A stretch of DNA of 64,000 nt from Chitinophagaceae bacterium (GTDB taxonomy: Bacteria > Bacteroidota > Bacteroidia > Chitinophagales > Chitinophagaceae): NCBI GenBank assembly GCA_947504605.1, contig CANNJE010000003.1, forward strand, positions 18,983 to 82,982, given 5' to 3'. Numbering within the stretch: position 1 is the first letter of the stretch; the number at the start of each line of letters is the position of its first letter. The notes under the pieces are model-generated. The model made no database searches and had not been told where the DNA came from. It saw nothing but the letters and a program-made list of their open reading frames with translations. This document shows, in pieces, positions 46,306 through 53,147 of this stretch. Position numbers and translations under genes: made by a program.

Positions 46306-47604
46306 TTAAATTTTCAATAAAAAAGATCTAAGCGCTTCTGTATTATTTTCTATTAACAATGCCTTTTTATCCAGCTTTAATTGATCTTGTATCGTTTCAG
46401 GGATTTTTACAGCTTCACCAATGATGGGTTCTACTACATCAAAAAACTTCACGGGGTGAGCCGTTTCTATTACTATTCCTTTTTGTGATGGATGTTCTTG
46501 TAAATAATTTTCAAGCGCATGGTATCCTACTGCACCATGCGGATCTAGTAAGTACCCAAATTGATCATACACTTTTTTTAAAGTAATTTTTGTTTCCTCA
46601 TCATTGATACTGCAGGCCGTTAACTGTTTTTTCAGATCATTTATTTTCAGATCAAATATTTGCAATATCCTAACAAAATTGCTTGGGTTACCTACATCCA
46701 TTGCATTTGAAATAGTGGCAACCGCTTTCTTAGGCTGATATATATTTGTTTCAAAAAAATGTGGTACCGTATCGTTGGCATTACAGGCAGCTATAAAATG
46801 ATGAATGGGCAAGCCGGATGCTTTTGCTAAAATTCCTGCACAGATATTGCCAAAATTTCCACTAGGTACTGCAACAACTGGTGGATTATTTTTATCAGCC
46901 CACTGTTTATAGGCAAAGAAATAGTAGAACTGTTGTGGCAGCCAACGGGCTACATTAATAGAATTAGCTGATGTTAGGAAAAGGTTTTCAAAACTGTCGG
47001 CATCTGCAAAAATATCTTTTACCATTTGCTGGCAATCATCAAAACTTCCTTTTACTTCCAGCGCATGAATATTTTTACCCAACGTTGTTAATTGTTTTTC
47101 CTGAACGGTACTCACTTTTCCGGATGGGTATAAAATGATGACTTCTACATTGGGCACATCGTAAAAGCCATTGGCCACCGCTCCTCCCGTGTCGCCGGAT
47201 GTAGCAACCAGTACTGTAACTTTTTTAGGCTGGTCTTTTACAAAATAACCCAAACACCGGCTCATGAATCTTGCTCCTATATCCTTAAAGGCCAAAGTGG
47301 GTCCATGAAAAAGTTCTAACGAATAAATTGAATTATTTATCGATACAAGTGGTATGGGAAAGTTAACAGTTTCTTCCACAATATCTTTTAAAACAGCCGC
47401 AGGGATAGTGTCTCCTACATAAGGGCTGATTACCTCAAAAGCAATTGCTTCATCGGAGAAACTATTTATATCATTTATAAGAGTTTCCTGAAGCAGCGGT
47501 ATTCTTTCAGGGAAATAGAGTCCTTTATCCGGCGCCTGACCTTTGATGGTAGCTTCTTTAAAATTTACGAAGGGTGAATTATTATTGGTGCTAAAATAGT
47601 TCAT
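46306..47604 (-). CDS. thrC: Threonine synthase
   Basis: PLP enzyme converting O-phospho-L-homoserine to L-threonine, the last step of the pathway. The N-terminus shows MNYFSTNNNSPFVNFKEA, typical for ThrC. The PLP-lysine motif is LFHGPTLAFKDIGARFM, with the phosphate cup in VATSGDTGGAVANGF. The PLP-binding region near VPSGNFGNICAG is also present. Length 432 is typical. It is the third gene of the minus-strand operon after thrA and thrB, with a 76-bp gap from thrB. Confidence 0.96.
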   Translation of the reverse strand: MNYFSTNNNSPFVNFKEATIKGQAPDKGLYFPERIPLLQETLINDINSFSDEAIAFEVISPYVGDTIPAAVLKDIVEETVNFPIPLVSINNSIYSLELFHGPTLAFKDIGARFMSRCLGYFVKDQPKKVTVLVATSGDTGGAVANGFYDVPNVEVIILYPSGKVSTVQEKQLTTLGKNIHALEVKGSFDDCQQMVKDIFADADSFENLFLTSANSINVARWLPQQFYYFFAYKQWADKNNPPVVAVPSGNFGNICAGILAKASGLPIHHFIAACNANDTVPHFFETNIYQPKKAVATISNAMDVGNPSNFVRILQIFDLKINDLKKQLTACSINDEETKITLKKVYDQFGYLLDPHGAVGYHALENYLQEHPSQKGIVIETAHPVKFFDVVEPIIGEAVKIPETIQDQLKLDKKALLIENNTEALRSFLLKI

Positions 47605-47680: not shown

Positions 47681-48634
47681 TTAAATGTCCTTTAAAACTT
47701 TTACTCCCTGCTGATTAATGGTGGTTACATAAACATGATGCTCCAGACCAATTTTGTTAAATACTGTATGCATTTCCTTCTTTACAGCTTCTGCAGTTTG
47801 TTCATTTGTGCTGAGCATAAAAATTGAAGGGCCTGAACCGGAGATGCCCCCTCCCAATGCACCCGCAGCCTTGCTTTGTTTTTTCACATCATCAAAGCCT
47901 GGTATCAAAATACTTCTAACTGGTTCTATGATTACATCTTCCAAGCTACGGCCAATAAGGTCATAATCATTTTTCATGAAGCCTGCTACGAGTCCGGCAA
48001 TATTACCCCATTGTTTTATAGCATCTTTAAGCAGCACCTGTTTTTTTAAAATTTGCCGTGCATCGGAGGTTCGTACTTCAATTTGTGGATGCACAACTGT
48101 AACCCATAATTCAGGTGCGGGAATGGGGACAATATCCAGCGGAAAAATACTTCTAATTAAAGTAATACCTCCATAAATGCAGGGTGCAACATTATCTGCA
48201 TGTTTAACTCCAGAAGCAACTTTTTCTCCACTCATGGCAAAACGTACCAATTGTTCCTGGCTAAAAAAATTATTCAGTAAATGATTGGCAGCCACAACTG
48301 CGCCAGCAGCACTGGCAGCACTTGAGCCAATGCCACTACCAGGTTTTATGTTTTTTTTGATAAGAACATCAAATCCAAAATCTGCATTTAATTCCTGAAG
48401 TATTTCTACTAAAGGCGCACCTGCTGTATTTTGCATAGGGTCTGTGGGAAGATTGTAGCCATCCGCACTTTTTAAACGTACTTCTTTTTCTGAAATAATC
48501 GTAACCGTCATTTCATCAGCGGGAGCATCAAGGCAAAGGCCTAGTACATCAAAACCGCATACGAGGTTGGCAACTGTTCCCGGAGAAGCAACTTTTACAG
48601 TTTGGTTAATAACAGGATTTATTTGCTGCTTCAT
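47681..48634 (-). CDS. thrB: Homoserine kinase
   Basis: GHMP-superfamily kinase that phosphorylates homoserine. The N-terminal motif is VKVASPGTVANLVCGFDVLG. The ATP-binding glycine-rich loop is PGSGIGSSAASAAGAV. The C-terminal GHMP motif is GALGGGISGSGPSIFML. Length 317 is typical. The gene begins 2 bp after the thrA stop, so the two are translationally close. Neighbour thrC completes the threonine branch of the aspartate pathway. Confidence 0.96.
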   Translation of the reverse strand: MKQQINPVINQTVKVASPGTVANLVCGFDVLGLCLDAPADEMTVTIISEKEVRLKSADGYNLPTDPMQNTAGAPLVEILQELNADFGFDVLIKKNIKPGSGIGSSAASAAGAVVAANHLLNNFFSQEQLVRFAMSGEKVASGVKHADNVAPCIYGGITLIRSIFPLDIVPIPAPELWVTVVHPQIEVRTSDARQILKKQVLLKDAIKQWGNIAGLVAGFMKNDYDLIGRSLEDVIIEPVRSILIPGFDDVKKQSKAAGALGGGISGSGPSIFMLSTNEQTAEAVKKEMHTVFNKIGLEHHVYVTTINQQGVKVLKDI

Positions 48635-48636
48635 TT

Positions 48637-51081
48637 TTATGCTTTTGATGTTCTGATAATATCTGCAAATACGCCCGATGCTGTAACTGCAGCACCTGCT
48701 CCTGCACCTTTTATTACCAGAGGCTGCTGTGTATAACGATCGGTATAAAATAATACAATATTGTCCTTGCCGTAAAGATGATAGAAATCGTGTGGCGGTG
48801 GAATATGCAGTAAACCAACATTGGCTTTTCCTTCTTTAAAACTTGCTACAAATTTCAATTTACAACCTGCGCCTGCTGCATCATCATAAATCTTTTTAAA
48901 GTGGGCTTCATGCGCTTCCATTGATTCGTAAAAATCTGTCACAGATCCCTGCATACAGGCTTCAGGCATAAAAGAGTTATTGCCGATATCTTCCATTTCA
49001 ATTACATGGCCGGCTTCTCTTGCCAATATCATAATCTTACGCATCACATCTTTTCCGCTAAGATCAAGCCTTGGATCAGGTTCTGTATAACCTTCTTCCT
49101 GCGCCTGTTTTACAATAGAAGCAAAAGAGCTACTGCCATCATAATTATTGAAGACAAAATTTAAAGTGCCGCTAAGAACAGCTTCCATACTATGTATATT
49201 ATCTCCACTACGCAATAGGTCGTTTAATGTACCAATAATAGGTAAACTTGCACCTACATTTGTTTCGAACAAAAATTTTGTATTGTATTCAGTAGAAAGT
49301 TCTTTTAGTTTTTTATAATAAGGATAGGGAGAAGAGCAGGCAACTTTATTGCAGGCTACCACTGCAATACTTTTTTGCAGAAGTTTATCATAAACTGAAG
49401 CAACATCGTCATTGGCTGTAACATCTGCAAAAACAGTATTTCTTAAATTTTTTTCACGAATGGTTTTAATATATTCCTGAATGCCGGCGGTTTTGCCTGA
49501 AATTAATAATTCTTTCCAGGAGGAAAGATCTATACCATTTTCGTCTACCCAGAATTTTTTGCTATTGGCAATACCCACCACATTTACTTTCAAACGCATA
49601 TTGTGCAACAGGTACTCCTGCTGTTGAAGTATCTGGTCAAGTAATTTGGCACCAACATTTCCAACGCCTGCAATAAACAGATTTACTTCCCTTATTTCTT
49701 TTTCAAAAAATACTTCATGAATAGTATTGGTAGATTTATTTACATCTGCATTGCTGATAACGGCAGTAATATTTCTTTCGGATGAACCCTGTGCAATAGC
49801 TCTTATATTAACACCGTTTCTTCCCAATGCGCTAAAGAATTTTCCGCTGATGCCGGTGTGGTTTTTCATGCGGTCTCCAACGAGTGCGATTATCGAAAGA
49901 TTTTTTTCTACGATTAGTGGCTCTACTTTTTTTATCTCTATTTCATAAGCAAAAATTTCATCTATTATTTGTTTTGCTGCTGCTGCATTTTTTTCATCTA
50001 TGCCCACACAAATAGAATGTTCCGAAGAACTTTGGGTGATGAGGATTACATTTATTTTTTTTGAAGCAAGTGCTTCAAATAATCTCTTGGAGAATCCAGG
50101 AATTCCAACCATCCCACTTCCTTCCAAACTTAATAATGCAATGCTGCTGATACTTGAAATGCCAGTAATACTGCTGCTGCTTTCAGTTACTTTTTGCTGT
50201 ATAATTGTCCCATCATCTTCTGGTGCAAATGTATTTTTTATCCAAACAGGAATACCTTGACTCATTACAGGTTGAATAGTGGGCGGGTAAATAACTTTAG
50301 CACCAAAATGAGAAAGTTCCATTGCTTCCTGATAGGAAATCTGAGGGATGATTCTTGCATTGGGAACCAATCTTGGATCTGCTGTCATCATGCCAGAAAC
50401 ATCGGTCCATATTTCAAGTACAGTTGCATTTGCAGCAGCAGCAAAAATAGCAGCTGTATAATCGGATCCACCCCTGCCAAGCGTAGTGTGTACCCCTTCT
50501 TCATTGGAAGCAATAAAACCTGGGACAATGTATATTTTGCTATCGTTTCCTTTCAGGTATTTTGCAATATTATGGTTGGTTTGGGAAAAGTTTACAAGGG
50601 CGTTGCCAAAGTCTGAATTAGTTACAATCAATGCTCTTGAGTCGGTCCAAAGGGTTTGTATATTTTCTGACTGCAAGGCCGCCGCAATAATTTTGGATGA
50701 AAGCAATTCGCCATAACTTACAATACGATCTTTGGTTCGGGATGATAATTCTTTAAGAAGAAAAATGCCGTTACAGATATCTTCTATTTCGTTGCACTGT
50801 GTTTTAACAAAACTCAATAAACTGCTTTGATTATTAATAGGGATCAGGTCTCTTACTGTTTGCAAATGCCTTTGTTCAATCTCAATTAAAAAAGATTGAT
50901 AATTTTCCTGTCCTTCTGATGCTACCTGACTACACTGCAATAGCAAGTCTGTAATGCCACCCAATGCAGAAACAACTACAATCGTTTTATTGTCTTCAGT
51001 TTTATTTTTAAGAACTGCAATTACTTTTTTTATATTTTCTGCATTTTTAACAGAACTGCCTCCGAATTTTAAAACCTGCAT
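48637..51081 (-). CDS. thrA: Bifunctional aspartokinase / homoserine dehydrogenase
   Basis: The 814-residue protein catalyses the first and third steps of the aspartate-to-threonine pathway. The aspartokinase domain begins QVLKFGGSSVKNAENI and includes TLGRGGSDYTAAIFA. Two ACT-type regulatory segments follow (ISSIALLSLEGSGMVGIPG and LSIIALVGDRMKNHTGISG), consistent with feedback by threonine. The homoserine dehydrogenase half starts near residue 465 with VNLFIAGVGNVGAKLL. It also contains GASLPIIGTLNDLLRSGD and LDLSGKDVMRKIMILARE. A leader peptide gene with a Thr/Ile run lies 85 bp upstream, suggesting attenuation control. Confidence 0.96.
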   Translation of the reverse strand: MQVLKFGGSSVKNAENIKKVIAVLKNKTEDNKTIVVVSALGGITDLLLQCSQVASEGQENYQSFLIEIEQRHLQTVRDLIPINNQSSLLSFVKTQCNEIEDICNGIFLLKELSSRTKDRIVSYGELLSSKIIAAALQSENIQTLWTDSRALIVTNSDFGNALVNFSQTNHNIAKYLKGNDSKIYIVPGFIASNEEGVHTTLGRGGSDYTAAIFAAAANATVLEIWTDVSGMMTADPRLVPNARIIPQISYQEAMELSHFGAKVIYPPTIQPVMSQGIPVWIKNTFAPEDDGTIIQQKVTESSSSITGISSISSIALLSLEGSGMVGIPGFSKRLFEALASKKINVILITQSSSEHSICVGIDEKNAAAAKQIIDEIFAYEIEIKKVEPLIVEKNLSIIALVGDRMKNHTGISGKFFSALGRNGVNIRAIAQGSSERNITAVISNADVNKSTNTIHEVFFEKEIREVNLFIAGVGNVGAKLLDQILQQQEYLLHNMRLKVNVVGIANSKKFWVDENGIDLSSWKELLISGKTAGIQEYIKTIREKNLRNTVFADVTANDDVASVYDKLLQKSIAVVACNKVACSSPYPYYKKLKELSTEYNTKFLFETNVGASLPIIGTLNDLLRSGDNIHSMEAVLSGTLNFVFNNYDGSSSFASIVKQAQEEGYTEPDPRLDLSGKDVMRKIMILAREAGHVIEMEDIGNNSFMPEACMQGSVTDFYESMEAHEAHFKKIYDDAAGAGCKLKFVASFKEGKANVGLLHIPPPHDFYHLYGKDNIVLFYTDRYTQQPLVIKGAGAGAAVTASGVFADIIRTSKA

Positions 51082-51313
51082 GCTTTATTTTATTAAGATG
51101 TATAAATGAAACTCCTGATGGATGAAATAGCCGTAGCCCGATGGATAATATGAGAATTTGCAACCCTTAGCGGGTTGTAATAGTAATAATCGTAGTATTT
51201 GAGAATACTGCCGAAATGAATTGACTGTTATGTTTGTTTTGATTAAACATTTGCACGAATGTATAGAAATATTTGTGCAAACCATCATTTATTTTAAATA
51301 ATAATCAAAAATA
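51082..51313 (-). promoter_or_regulatory. Threonine attenuator-like leader of the thr operon
   Basis: Read on the minus strand, a -7 element TATTTTTG (51313 down to 51306) is followed by a leader peptide gene (51250-51167) and two hairpins, AGTATT-ctca-AATACT (51209-51194) within the leader codons and CAACCC-gctaa-GGGTTG (51177-51161) enclosing the leader stop codon. The CCCG of the second hairpin can instead pair with CGGG at about 51140. A further inverted repeat TTTGCAC/GTGCAAA (51281-51275 and 51256-51250) covers the leader start. There is no T-tract before thrA, so whether control is by termination or by translation is open. Confidence 0.65.
51167..51250 (-). CDS. Thr operon leader peptide (27 residues, run TTIITITT)
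   Basis: A short frame, ATG to TAA, read on the minus strand 85 bp before thrA. Its product is MFNQNKHNSQ followed by FISAVFSNTTIITITTR. Residues 19-26 contain five Thr and three Ile in eight codons. This matches the logic and the look of the enterobacterial thr leader, in which starvation for charged tRNA-Thr or tRNA-Ile stalls the ribosome and alters downstream RNA folding. The stop codon lies in the loop of a CAACCC/GGGTTG hairpin. No strong Shine-Dalgarno precedes it, as is usual in the phylum. The chance of such a run directly before a thr operon is very small, so a regulatory role is likely, though unproven here. Confidence 0.72.
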   Translation of the reverse strand: MFNQNKHNSQFISAVFSNTTIITITTR

Positions 51314-51327
51314 TCATTATTTATTTA

Positions 51328-51345
51328 GTTTGTTATCTAACAAAC
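51328..51345. promoter_or_regulatory. 18-bp palindrome upstream of the thr promoter
   Basis: GTTTGTTA-TC-TAACAAAC is a perfect 8+8 inverted repeat with a 2-bp centre. It lies 14 bp upstream of the thr -7 element and covers the place where a -33 element would be, as expected for a repressor operator. Confidence 0.55.
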
Positions 51346-51382
51346 ATTCATTTTTTGTTTCTATTATTTAGTTATTAAAAAA

Positions 51383-51413
51383 AATGGCTGTTCGGGTTTA
51401 CCCGACAGCCATT
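51383..51413 (-). terminator. Intrinsic terminator after the glyA-DUF4293 unit
   Basis: On the minus strand, AATGGCTGTCGGG-TAAA-CCCGaACAGCCATT is followed by a run of eight T. It lies 22 bp past the DUF4293 stop and isolates the thr operon promoter from upstream transcription. Confidence 0.85.
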
Positions 51414-51434
51414 GTATAAATAATTTTAGTTTTA

Positions 51435-51854
51435 TTATCTCAATCTGTTACTTTCCTTTATAATTTTTTCATCATTGCTGATTCCTTTTGCGGCCAATAT
51501 GAAAAATAATACAACACAACCCTGCAGTAGTGCAGTTAGGGAATAGGTGCCCGCTGTGAATGTTTTTAACTCGGCATAATAAAGGAATAGGAGTAATGCT
51601 TCCAATAAAATACCGGCAATAATTAGCCTTAATTGTAATGTACGGTTGTTGTAAAGAAAAATCGTAATTAACGCTAATACTGCAATAGCAGTTGTTACAA
51701 TAATCAAAGGAATGCTTGTTGTGGCGTTTATTTTCTTAAAAGTATTGAGTGTTTCATTTTCAGTGACTGTTCCGCTGTAAAATGAAAGTTTAAAACCTAA
51801 GAAAGCACATACAGATGCAAGAAGCAGCCATATCGTTTGTATTCTTTGTAGCAT
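51435..51854 (-). CDS. DUF4293 family membrane protein
   Basis: A 139-residue protein with four membrane helices and the family start MLQRIQTIWLLLASVCAFL, characteristic of the Bacteroidota-specific DUF4293. Helices follow at about residues 46-66, 74-92 and 104-120, then a charged tail. Its function is not known. The gene starts 12 bp after the glyA stop, and is probably co-transcribed with it; a strong terminator follows. Confidence 0.85.
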   Translation of the reverse strand: MLQRIQTIWLLLASVCAFLGFKLSFYSGTVTENETLNTFKKINATTSIPLIIVTTAIAVLALITIFLYNNRTLQLRLIIAGILLEALLLFLYYAELKTFTAGTYSLTALLQGCVVLFFILAAKGISNDEKIIKESNRLR

Positions 51855-51866
51855 GATCTTTCAATT

Positions 51867-53147
51867 TTAGTTTAATTCCGGGTAAAGAGGGAACTGTTTC
51901 ATAAAAGTTTTTACTTCATCTTTAACAGATGCAATGGTTTGTTCATTATCTATATTCATCAATACATTATCGATCATGTCTACAACCATTTGCATATGTG
52001 CTTCATTCATACCACGGGTAGTAATGGCTGCAACACCAACCCTGATTCCACTTGTAACAAATGGGCTCTTATCGTCGTAAGGTACTGTGTTTTTATTCAG
52101 CGTGATATGCGCTCTGTCAAGTGTTTCCTGTGCTTTTTTTCCTGTAATATTTTTATTCCGAAGATCTATCAGCATTAAATGGTTATCGGTTCCGCCACTA
52201 ATAATATCATATCCTTTGGCAGTAAAAGCTTTTGCCATTGCCTGAGCATTACTTTGAACCTGTTTGATGTAAGTTGTATATTCTTCTGTCAGTAATTCTC
52301 CAAAAGCAATAGCTTTGGCTGCAATTACATGTTCCAGCGGACCGCCCTGTGTGCCTGGGAACACAGCCATATCCAGTAGATTACTCATCATGCGGAGATT
52401 GCCCTTAAGATCTTTTAATCCAAAAGGATTTTCAAAATCTTTTTTCATAAGAATAATACCACCTCTTGGTCCACGCAATGTTTTATGAGTTGTACTAGTA
52501 ACAAAATGACAATGATCAAATGGTGAACTCAATAAGCCCTTGGCAATAAATCCTGCAGGGTGTGCCATATCGCACCATACAAATGCATTGATTTCATCTG
52601 CCACTTTTCTTATTCTTGCATAATCAATATCACGGCTGTAAGCAGAAGCGCCACAGATGATCAGTTTTGGCTTTTCGGTGCGTGCTTTTTCTTCCAGCAT
52701 TTCATAATCAATTAGTCCTGTATCTTTTTTAACTGTATAAAAGAATGGTTGGTATAATTTACCAGAAAAATTTACCGGAGAACCATGGGTTAAATGTCCG
52801 CCCATACTAAGGTCTAATCCTAGTATTTTATCGCCCGGCTGAAGGATTGCAAGCATTAATGCCGCATTTGCCTGAGCACCACTGTGAGGCTGCACATTAG
52901 CATATTCGCAGCTAAAGACTTCTTTAATTCTGTCTATGGCAAGTTGTTCTATTTGATCTACCACCTCACATCCGCCATAATAACGTCTTCCAGGATATCC
53001 TTCTGCATATTTATTGGTAAGAGAGGTTCCCATTGCTTCCATAACTTGCAAACTGGTAAAATTTTCGCTTGCAATTAGTTCAATACCTTCCCTTTGTCTT
53101 TGAAGTTCTTTGTCTATTAGGTCAAAAATTAATGTATCTCTTTGCAT
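51867..53147 (-). CDS. glyA: Serine hydroxymethyltransferase
   Basis: PLP enzyme that converts serine and tetrahydrofolate to glycine and 5,10-methylene-THF. Family motifs include [10 protein letters not shown] at the N-terminus, [28 protein letters not shown], and the PLP-lysine motif [15 protein letters not shown]. The 426-residue size is standard. A good TATATTTG -7 element is found about 18 bp upstream of the start, so the mRNA leader is very short. It forms a unit with the DUF4293 gene. Confidence 0.97.

Follow-up and report, generated by a model that had tools for sequence, protein, structure and literature searches.

Leader-peptide attenuation is usually explained by the competition between a terminator and an antiterminator. 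The locus studied here, part of a window of 64,000 nucleotides from a Chitinophagaceae bacterium, carries a threonine-rich leader upstream of thrABC that has neither. In the same family the leaders of his and ilv do possess terminators, as do those of thr in sister families. This natural contrast makes a question testable: what reads out a stalled ribosome when there are no competing hairpins?

A threonine-rich leader precedes thrABC

On the minus strand, an ORF of 27 codons (51167–51250) runs from an ATG at 51250–51248 to a TAA stop at 51169–51167. It encodes the peptide MFNQNKHNSQFISAVFSNTTIITITTR, whose C-terminal end reads NTTIITITTR. Within the run ACT ACG ATT ATT ACT ATT ACA ACC (51196–51173, minus strand), five of the eight codons specify Thr and three Ile, and the thrA ATG (51081) lies 85 bp beyond the leader stop. 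The length, the codon run and the 85-bp distance agree with what had been noted from the sequence alone. Three minus-strand genes follow 3′ of the leader in the order thrA-thrB-thrC, and all three scored over the cut-off of their NCBIfam models. These are thrA, the bifunctional aspartate kinase/homoserine dehydrogenase I (48637–51081; NF006959, 1029 bits, cut-off 726), thrB, homoserine kinase (47681–48634; NF002288, 398 bits; TIGR00191, 231 bits), and thrC, threonine synthase (46306–47604; TIGR00260, 288 bits).

We then compared the upstream regions of thrA among relatives. The first set comprised 90 thrA loci from the same family, of which 89 were scored for a Thr-run ORF in the 300 nt before thrA, with dinucleotide shuffles and the opposite strand as controls. 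An ORF with at least four Thr in nine codons was present in 81 of the 89 loci compared to 4.3% of shuffles, and at least five Thr in nine codons were found in 70 of the 89 loci compared to none of the shuffles. The opposite strand upstream of thrA in the same loci yielded no Thr-run ORF. When only the upstream region of the window was shuffled by dinucleotides, five Thr in nine codons arose in 0 of 1000 shuffles. The second set, which shares some genomes with the first, consisted of 80 loci including Ferruginibacter, Segetibacter, Niastella, Sediminibacterium and other Chitinophagaceae, with a best identity of about 74%; here the Thr-run ORF was detected in 70 of 79 loci. Orthologous leaders thus retain the Thr/Ile run, while the distance between leader and thrA ranges from about 60 to 240 nt among the family loci. 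Judging from this comparison, the element is almost certainly a regulatory threonine leader.

Conserved hairpins frame the Thr/Ile run

The leader of the window as a whole folds better than its shuffles (z = -2.3), and the folding agrees with the earlier proposal of one hairpin within the leader codons and another around the leader stop. The first, P0 (AGTATT CTCA AATACT; 51209–51194, minus strand), has a 3′ arm that overlaps the first Thr codon. In the second, P1 (CAACCC GCTAA GGGTTG; 51177–51161, minus strand), the last two Thr codons form the 5′ arm and the stop codon lies in the loop. The stop codon is located within the P1 loop in most loci and beyond P1 in some.

Both hairpins were scored across 67 loci. 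The mean folding z was -3.71 for P1 and -1.71 for the P0 region, with 76% of the loci below -1 for the latter. In a coupling test, in which the arms of each locus were compared with arms taken from other loci, the P1 arms served as the positive control and were strongly coupled (z = -10.9); the P0 arms were coupled as well (z -4 to -6). Since RNAalifold returned no structure on the MAFFT alignment A1, it was replaced by counting compensatory changes on the named P1 structure. In the first set we counted 22 double-change cells against 6.4 in shuffles, and in the second set 30 against 5.7, the latter on a model-fitted alignment that leans towards structure. None of 500 shuffles was as high in either set.

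A third, small hairpin, P2 (GGC TACG GCT; 51138–51129, minus strand), lies within a conserved GGGC...GCTG block. In the second set 89.6% of its cells were paired and three pairs carried double changes (alignment A2); P2 is thermodynamically weak across the 67 loci. At the same position, loci of family f24 possess other complementary stems (GGCA/TGCC, TTGGCA/TGCCAA, TAGGA/TCCTA). In family f5 the position is occupied by a U-rich/A-rich hairpin, e.g. GTCTTTTTTAAAAAAGAC (L100, L101, L103, L106, L114), and a T found 24–25 nt after CATAT is invariant in seven loci.

A nucleotide motif follows P1 at a fixed distance

Between P1 and P2 lies the motif CATATTATC (51152–51144, minus strand), which we call motif B. 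Its consensus CATATYAYC is kept in families f1, f5 and f24. It begins 5–11 nt after P1 in 128 of 133 scored loci, with a mode of 8, which is also the distance in the window, where P2 follows.

Many loci have a second CATATYAYC, copy A, near the leader start and before P0, mostly 77–105 nt upstream of motif B. In 41 of 67 loci, copy A agrees with the consensus at 8 or all 9 positions (copy A is seen, for example, in L027, L069, L083 and L114), and it is found in family f5 too. Its enrichment over shuffles is modest (7.7 compared to 6.7 of 9), and it is poor or absent in about a third of the loci; in the window it is unconvincing, with a best match of 6 of 9. A conserved peptide (HIIS) at copy A was ruled out, as the reading frame changes from locus to locus, and copy A is therefore a nucleotide signal. 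A promoter function of motif B was likewise rejected: its sequence is unlike TAnnTTTG, and in the spacer TAnnTTnG occurs at about a fifth of its density upstream of the leader.

No terminator or switch pairing was found in the leader

The sequence-only reading had found no obvious T-tract before thrA and suspected a different mechanism on that ground. We scanned for a hairpin with a T-rich tail from the motif to thrA in 84 family loci. The mean z was 0.04, with no terminator signal above shuffles, so that the missing T-tract holds for the window as well as family-wide; the scan reaches 75 nt, and longer distances or long loops are less well covered. An earlier count of 18 of 84 had begun 12 nt before the stop and could include P1, whereas the later count begins after the motif. 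The same scan gave z values of 5–7 in positive controls, namely most f3 thr leaders, f46 and one f4 genome (L138). Thr/Ile leaders with classical terminators before thrA occur in other Bacteroidota families (L133, L134, L136, L137, L138 and L139), and these T-tract leaders represent a second, conventional type of thr attenuator.

Could a classical terminator and antiterminator have been missed by the scans? The f9 leader L097 appears by eye to have a downstream terminator, CCCGGGCTTTTT, which the scan missed; P1 resembles the 1:2 hairpin of this leader, and terminators beyond 75 nt or with long loops were less well covered. Against this stand the mean z of 0.04 in the family loci compared to 5–7 in f3, f46 and L138, as well as the outcome for alternative pairings. 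The CCCG/CGGG pairing proposed earlier is present in letters, but its coupling was z = +0.4 across 67 loci. Inspection of f5 by eye had suggested a pairing between motif B and the P1 3′ arm, which was also rejected (z +3.2). Besides P0 and P1, only the P1 3′ arm with its adjoining linker passed the coupling test (z = -3.8); this value stems from neighbouring sequence and does not point to an alternative hairpin that could be used. Thus, none of the mutually exclusive antiterminator pairings tested was coupled. A classical attenuator is largely refuted, and we regard it as highly improbable. With the defining terminator/antiterminator pair absent, the variant is new.

Other leaders served as controls for the organisms themselves. 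In 24 of 25 hisG loci of the window's family the leader has a run of His codons, and in most of these a T-tract terminator is evident after it. The his leader of the same genome (L164, contig 68; MKKFTTIHHHHTLPQGKLC, then AAAAGGCTTACAGAAATGTAAGCCTTTTTC) is among those with a terminator. About eight ilvD loci in the family have an ILV leader, mostly with a T-tract terminator; the remaining genomes sampled, the window's own included, showed no such leader before ilvD. Because his and ilv leaders have terminators, the lack of one belongs to the thr leader of these families and not to the organisms. CATATNAYC was absent from the his and ilv leaders checked.

Classical histidine attenuators (HHHH leaders with T-tract terminators) stand before hisG throughout the family (L160–L184), and Ile/Val leaders (IIVVVVII..GGG) with terminators of the CCCGCCTCC..GGCGGGTTTT type precede ilvD in L187, L188, L191, L192, L195, L197, L202 and L204.

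Translational attenuation, which had also been suggested earlier, would let the leader govern ribosome access to the thrA start region. It is in line with the lack of a terminator in the family loci and has a precedent in E. coli topAI, where a uORF acts on the downstream start region (PMC12121999). Yet the predicted accessibility of the thrA start region in 75 loci was the same without a ribosome (0.574), with a ribosome on the Thr run (0.575) and with a ribosome at the stop (0.576), and the leader-to-thrA distance varies over the range given above. We consider this reading very unlikely.

A model for the readout of ribosome position

From the sequence comparisons, it is well supported that the thrABC leader is an attenuator that senses threonine (and isoleucine) through the ribosome and belongs to a type lacking an intrinsic terminator. 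The comparisons also support translation of the short leader and a placement of its Thr/Ile run exactly between P0 and P1; where the ribosome stands would thus decide which hairpin is open and report the supply of threonyl-tRNA. With ample threonine, the ribosome would finish and depart, exposing the C-rich, G-poor stretch of Thr codons and a largely unstructured spacer. Rho could then load on these and halt RNA polymerase ahead of thrA. Under threonine shortage, the ribosome would stall on the Thr codons, hide the loading site and open P0, and the polymerase would read through. P1 and the CATATYAYC that follows 5–11 nt later probably hold the polymerase there, so that the ribosome catches up.

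With neither a terminator nor an antiterminator found, and with the start region predicted to be unaffected, shielding by the ribosome against Rho-dependent termination is the simplest readout. None of our results contradicts it, and we give it somewhat less than an even chance. The genome encodes rho (TIGR00767, 638 bits, over the cut-off), and Rho of B. thetaiotaomicron is described in PMC13269538 as an active, essential terminator. The C/G ratio is 2.55 in the Thr run, which is partly trivial for Thr codons, and 1.45 in the spacer, a modest excess, compared to 0.82 in thrA coding DNA. No excess structure was detected after P1 in 67 loci. Pure Rho shielding needs neither a P1 so conserved nor a CATATYAYC at a fixed distance, and a pause or a binding factor would explain them.

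One such explanation makes P1 itself the off switch: it would stall or release the polymerase without a classical U-tract, aided by CATATYAYC at the active site. With a ribosome halted on the last Thr codons, i.e. on the P1 5′ arm, P1 could not fold and transcription would pass. The spacing of 5–11 nt (mode 8) between P1 and CATAT fits, as hairpins act on the polymerase from this distance, and the Thr run abuts the P1 5′ arm in the loci inspected. However, the T fraction is only 0.39 in the 9 nt after P1 (the tail in the window is CAAATTCTC), other leaders and the upstream gene of the same genome use T-tracts, and a stall at the first Thr codons leaves P1 free to fold, which gives the wrong sign. 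Such a switch appears unlikely to us.

Alternatively, a trans-acting protein or small RNA might bind a module of CATATYAYC plus hairpin (copy A with P0, copy B, i.e. motif B, with P2) and terminate or stabilise the transcript, with leader translation controlling access. The strong conservation of copy B speaks for it, as does the occurrence of copy A in 41 of 67 loci, in varied frames and also in f5. On the other side are the poor or absent copy A in the window and about a third of the loci, with its modest enrichment, and the lack of an identified candidate factor. We judge this reading quite unlikely. More broadly, it is possible, if somewhat doubtful, that a dedicated signal, CATATYAYC beside a hairpin and present twice in many loci, reads leader translation with no competing hairpins involved. 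The reader could be RNA polymerase, Rho/NusG or another RNA-binding factor.

The element occurs once per genome, nearly always directly upstream of thrA

To follow the element beyond the loci above, we turned to genome-wide searches. A strict pattern, CATATYAYCN{2,6}GGGCN{3,9}GCYG, found no match in the window's own genome because the window has GCTA, and a covariance model was used in its place. The model (R1) scored 74 bits at the window and gave no other convincing match in the same genome. Across 396 Bacteroidota genomes, 45 had a match, one per genome, in families f1, f4, f5 and f24. Comparison of coordinates placed 44 of the 45 sites directly upstream of thrA, and the remaining one (E = 0.004) lies 668 nt upstream of thrA on the same strand. 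In the second set the element was detected upstream of thrA in 74 of 80 loci.

No Rfam family, Thr_leader RF00506 included, matched the leader strand up to E = 10, and ten loci, the his leader of the same genome among them, gave no match at gathering thresholds. A search for T-boxes in 50000–52500 was also negative up to E = 10. We found no paper on Bacteroidota thr leaders in the literature searched. The conserved CATATYAYC offers a concrete handle, and a new RNA family for Bacteroidota annotation is possible.

Comparison with known leaders

Like E. coli thrL (Rfam RF00506), the leader is short, rich in Thr/Ile codons and located directly before thrABC, with the position of the ribosome as the proposed sensor. 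Unlike thrL, it has no intrinsic terminator, antiterminator pairing or Rfam match, and its regulatory codons form part of a hairpin arm, with the stop codon in the same hairpin. With the thr leaders of other Bacteroidota families and the His/ILV leaders of its own family it shares a leader rich in the cognate amino acid before the operon; the thr leaders of f3, f46, f4 (L138) and, judged by eye, f9 and the His/ILV leaders have a G+C-rich hairpin and a T-tract, whereas P1 and CATATYAYC are found here instead.

In E. coli tnaC, a ribosome stalled on a short leader shields a Rho loading site. The principle proposed here is the same, with a putative dependence on Rho; tnaC senses free tryptophan via the nascent peptide, while uncharged tRNA at Thr codons would stall the ribosome in our case. 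tnaC is also named as a precedent in PMC1262725, where Rho-dependent termination was proposed for terminator-less mycobacterial Cys leaders (see also PMC4633059). These share with the thr leader a run of regulatory codons near the leader stop and the absence of a terminator, but differ in amino acid and phylum. Within the same phylum, strong clues point to probable leader-peptide attenuation ahead of amino-acid operons in F. psychrophilum (PMC9723704); a thr leader, a missing terminator and the CATATYAYC motif are not described in the main text of that paper.

Promoter and upstream signals

TAnnTTnG clusters 100–120 nt before the leader stop in f1, f5 and f24 loci, and its density upstream of the leader is about five times that in the spacer. 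In the window, the likely -7 element is TACATTCG (51263–51256, minus strand), of the TAnnTTTG type, at -94 from the leader stop and 5 nt before the ATG. The -7 match placed about 55 nt upstream of the leader by the sequence-only reading is probably TATTTTTG (51313–51306, minus strand). This perfect TAnnTTTG is indeed present, but at -144 from the leader stop it is off the family cluster. As TACATTCG is nearer to the conserved position, it is more likely the promoter than TATTTTTG. We infer that the transcript starts at or just before the leader ATG, so that the leader mRNA would be nearly leaderless. Across the family the conserved promoter signal sits ahead of the leader, which speaks against a transcript start downstream of 51250. 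Together with the Thr/Ile run and the covariation of P1, this signal bears out the core of the sequence-only reading, a threonine attenuator leader before thrABC.

Further upstream, 24 of 84 family loci carry a TAACN4GTTA palindrome (often ACTAACGNTTGTTAT), compared to an average of 3.7 loci for three control palindromes. Its position is tight, mostly 128–138 nt before the leader stop and across the expected -33 region (e.g. L019, L021, L031 and L052), and it probably serves as the operator of a protein that regulates the thr promoter. The window carries a near-perfect palindrome, GTTTGTTAGATAACAAAC, at 51328–51345 upstream of the leader, with a half-site order unlike the TAACN4GTTA of the relatives. 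Beyond it, a strong T-tract terminator (ATGGCTGT..ACAGCCAT and then T8; 51377–51412) follows a 139-aa ORF (51854–51435), which suggests that thrABC forms a unit of its own and that classical terminators are in use in this genome.
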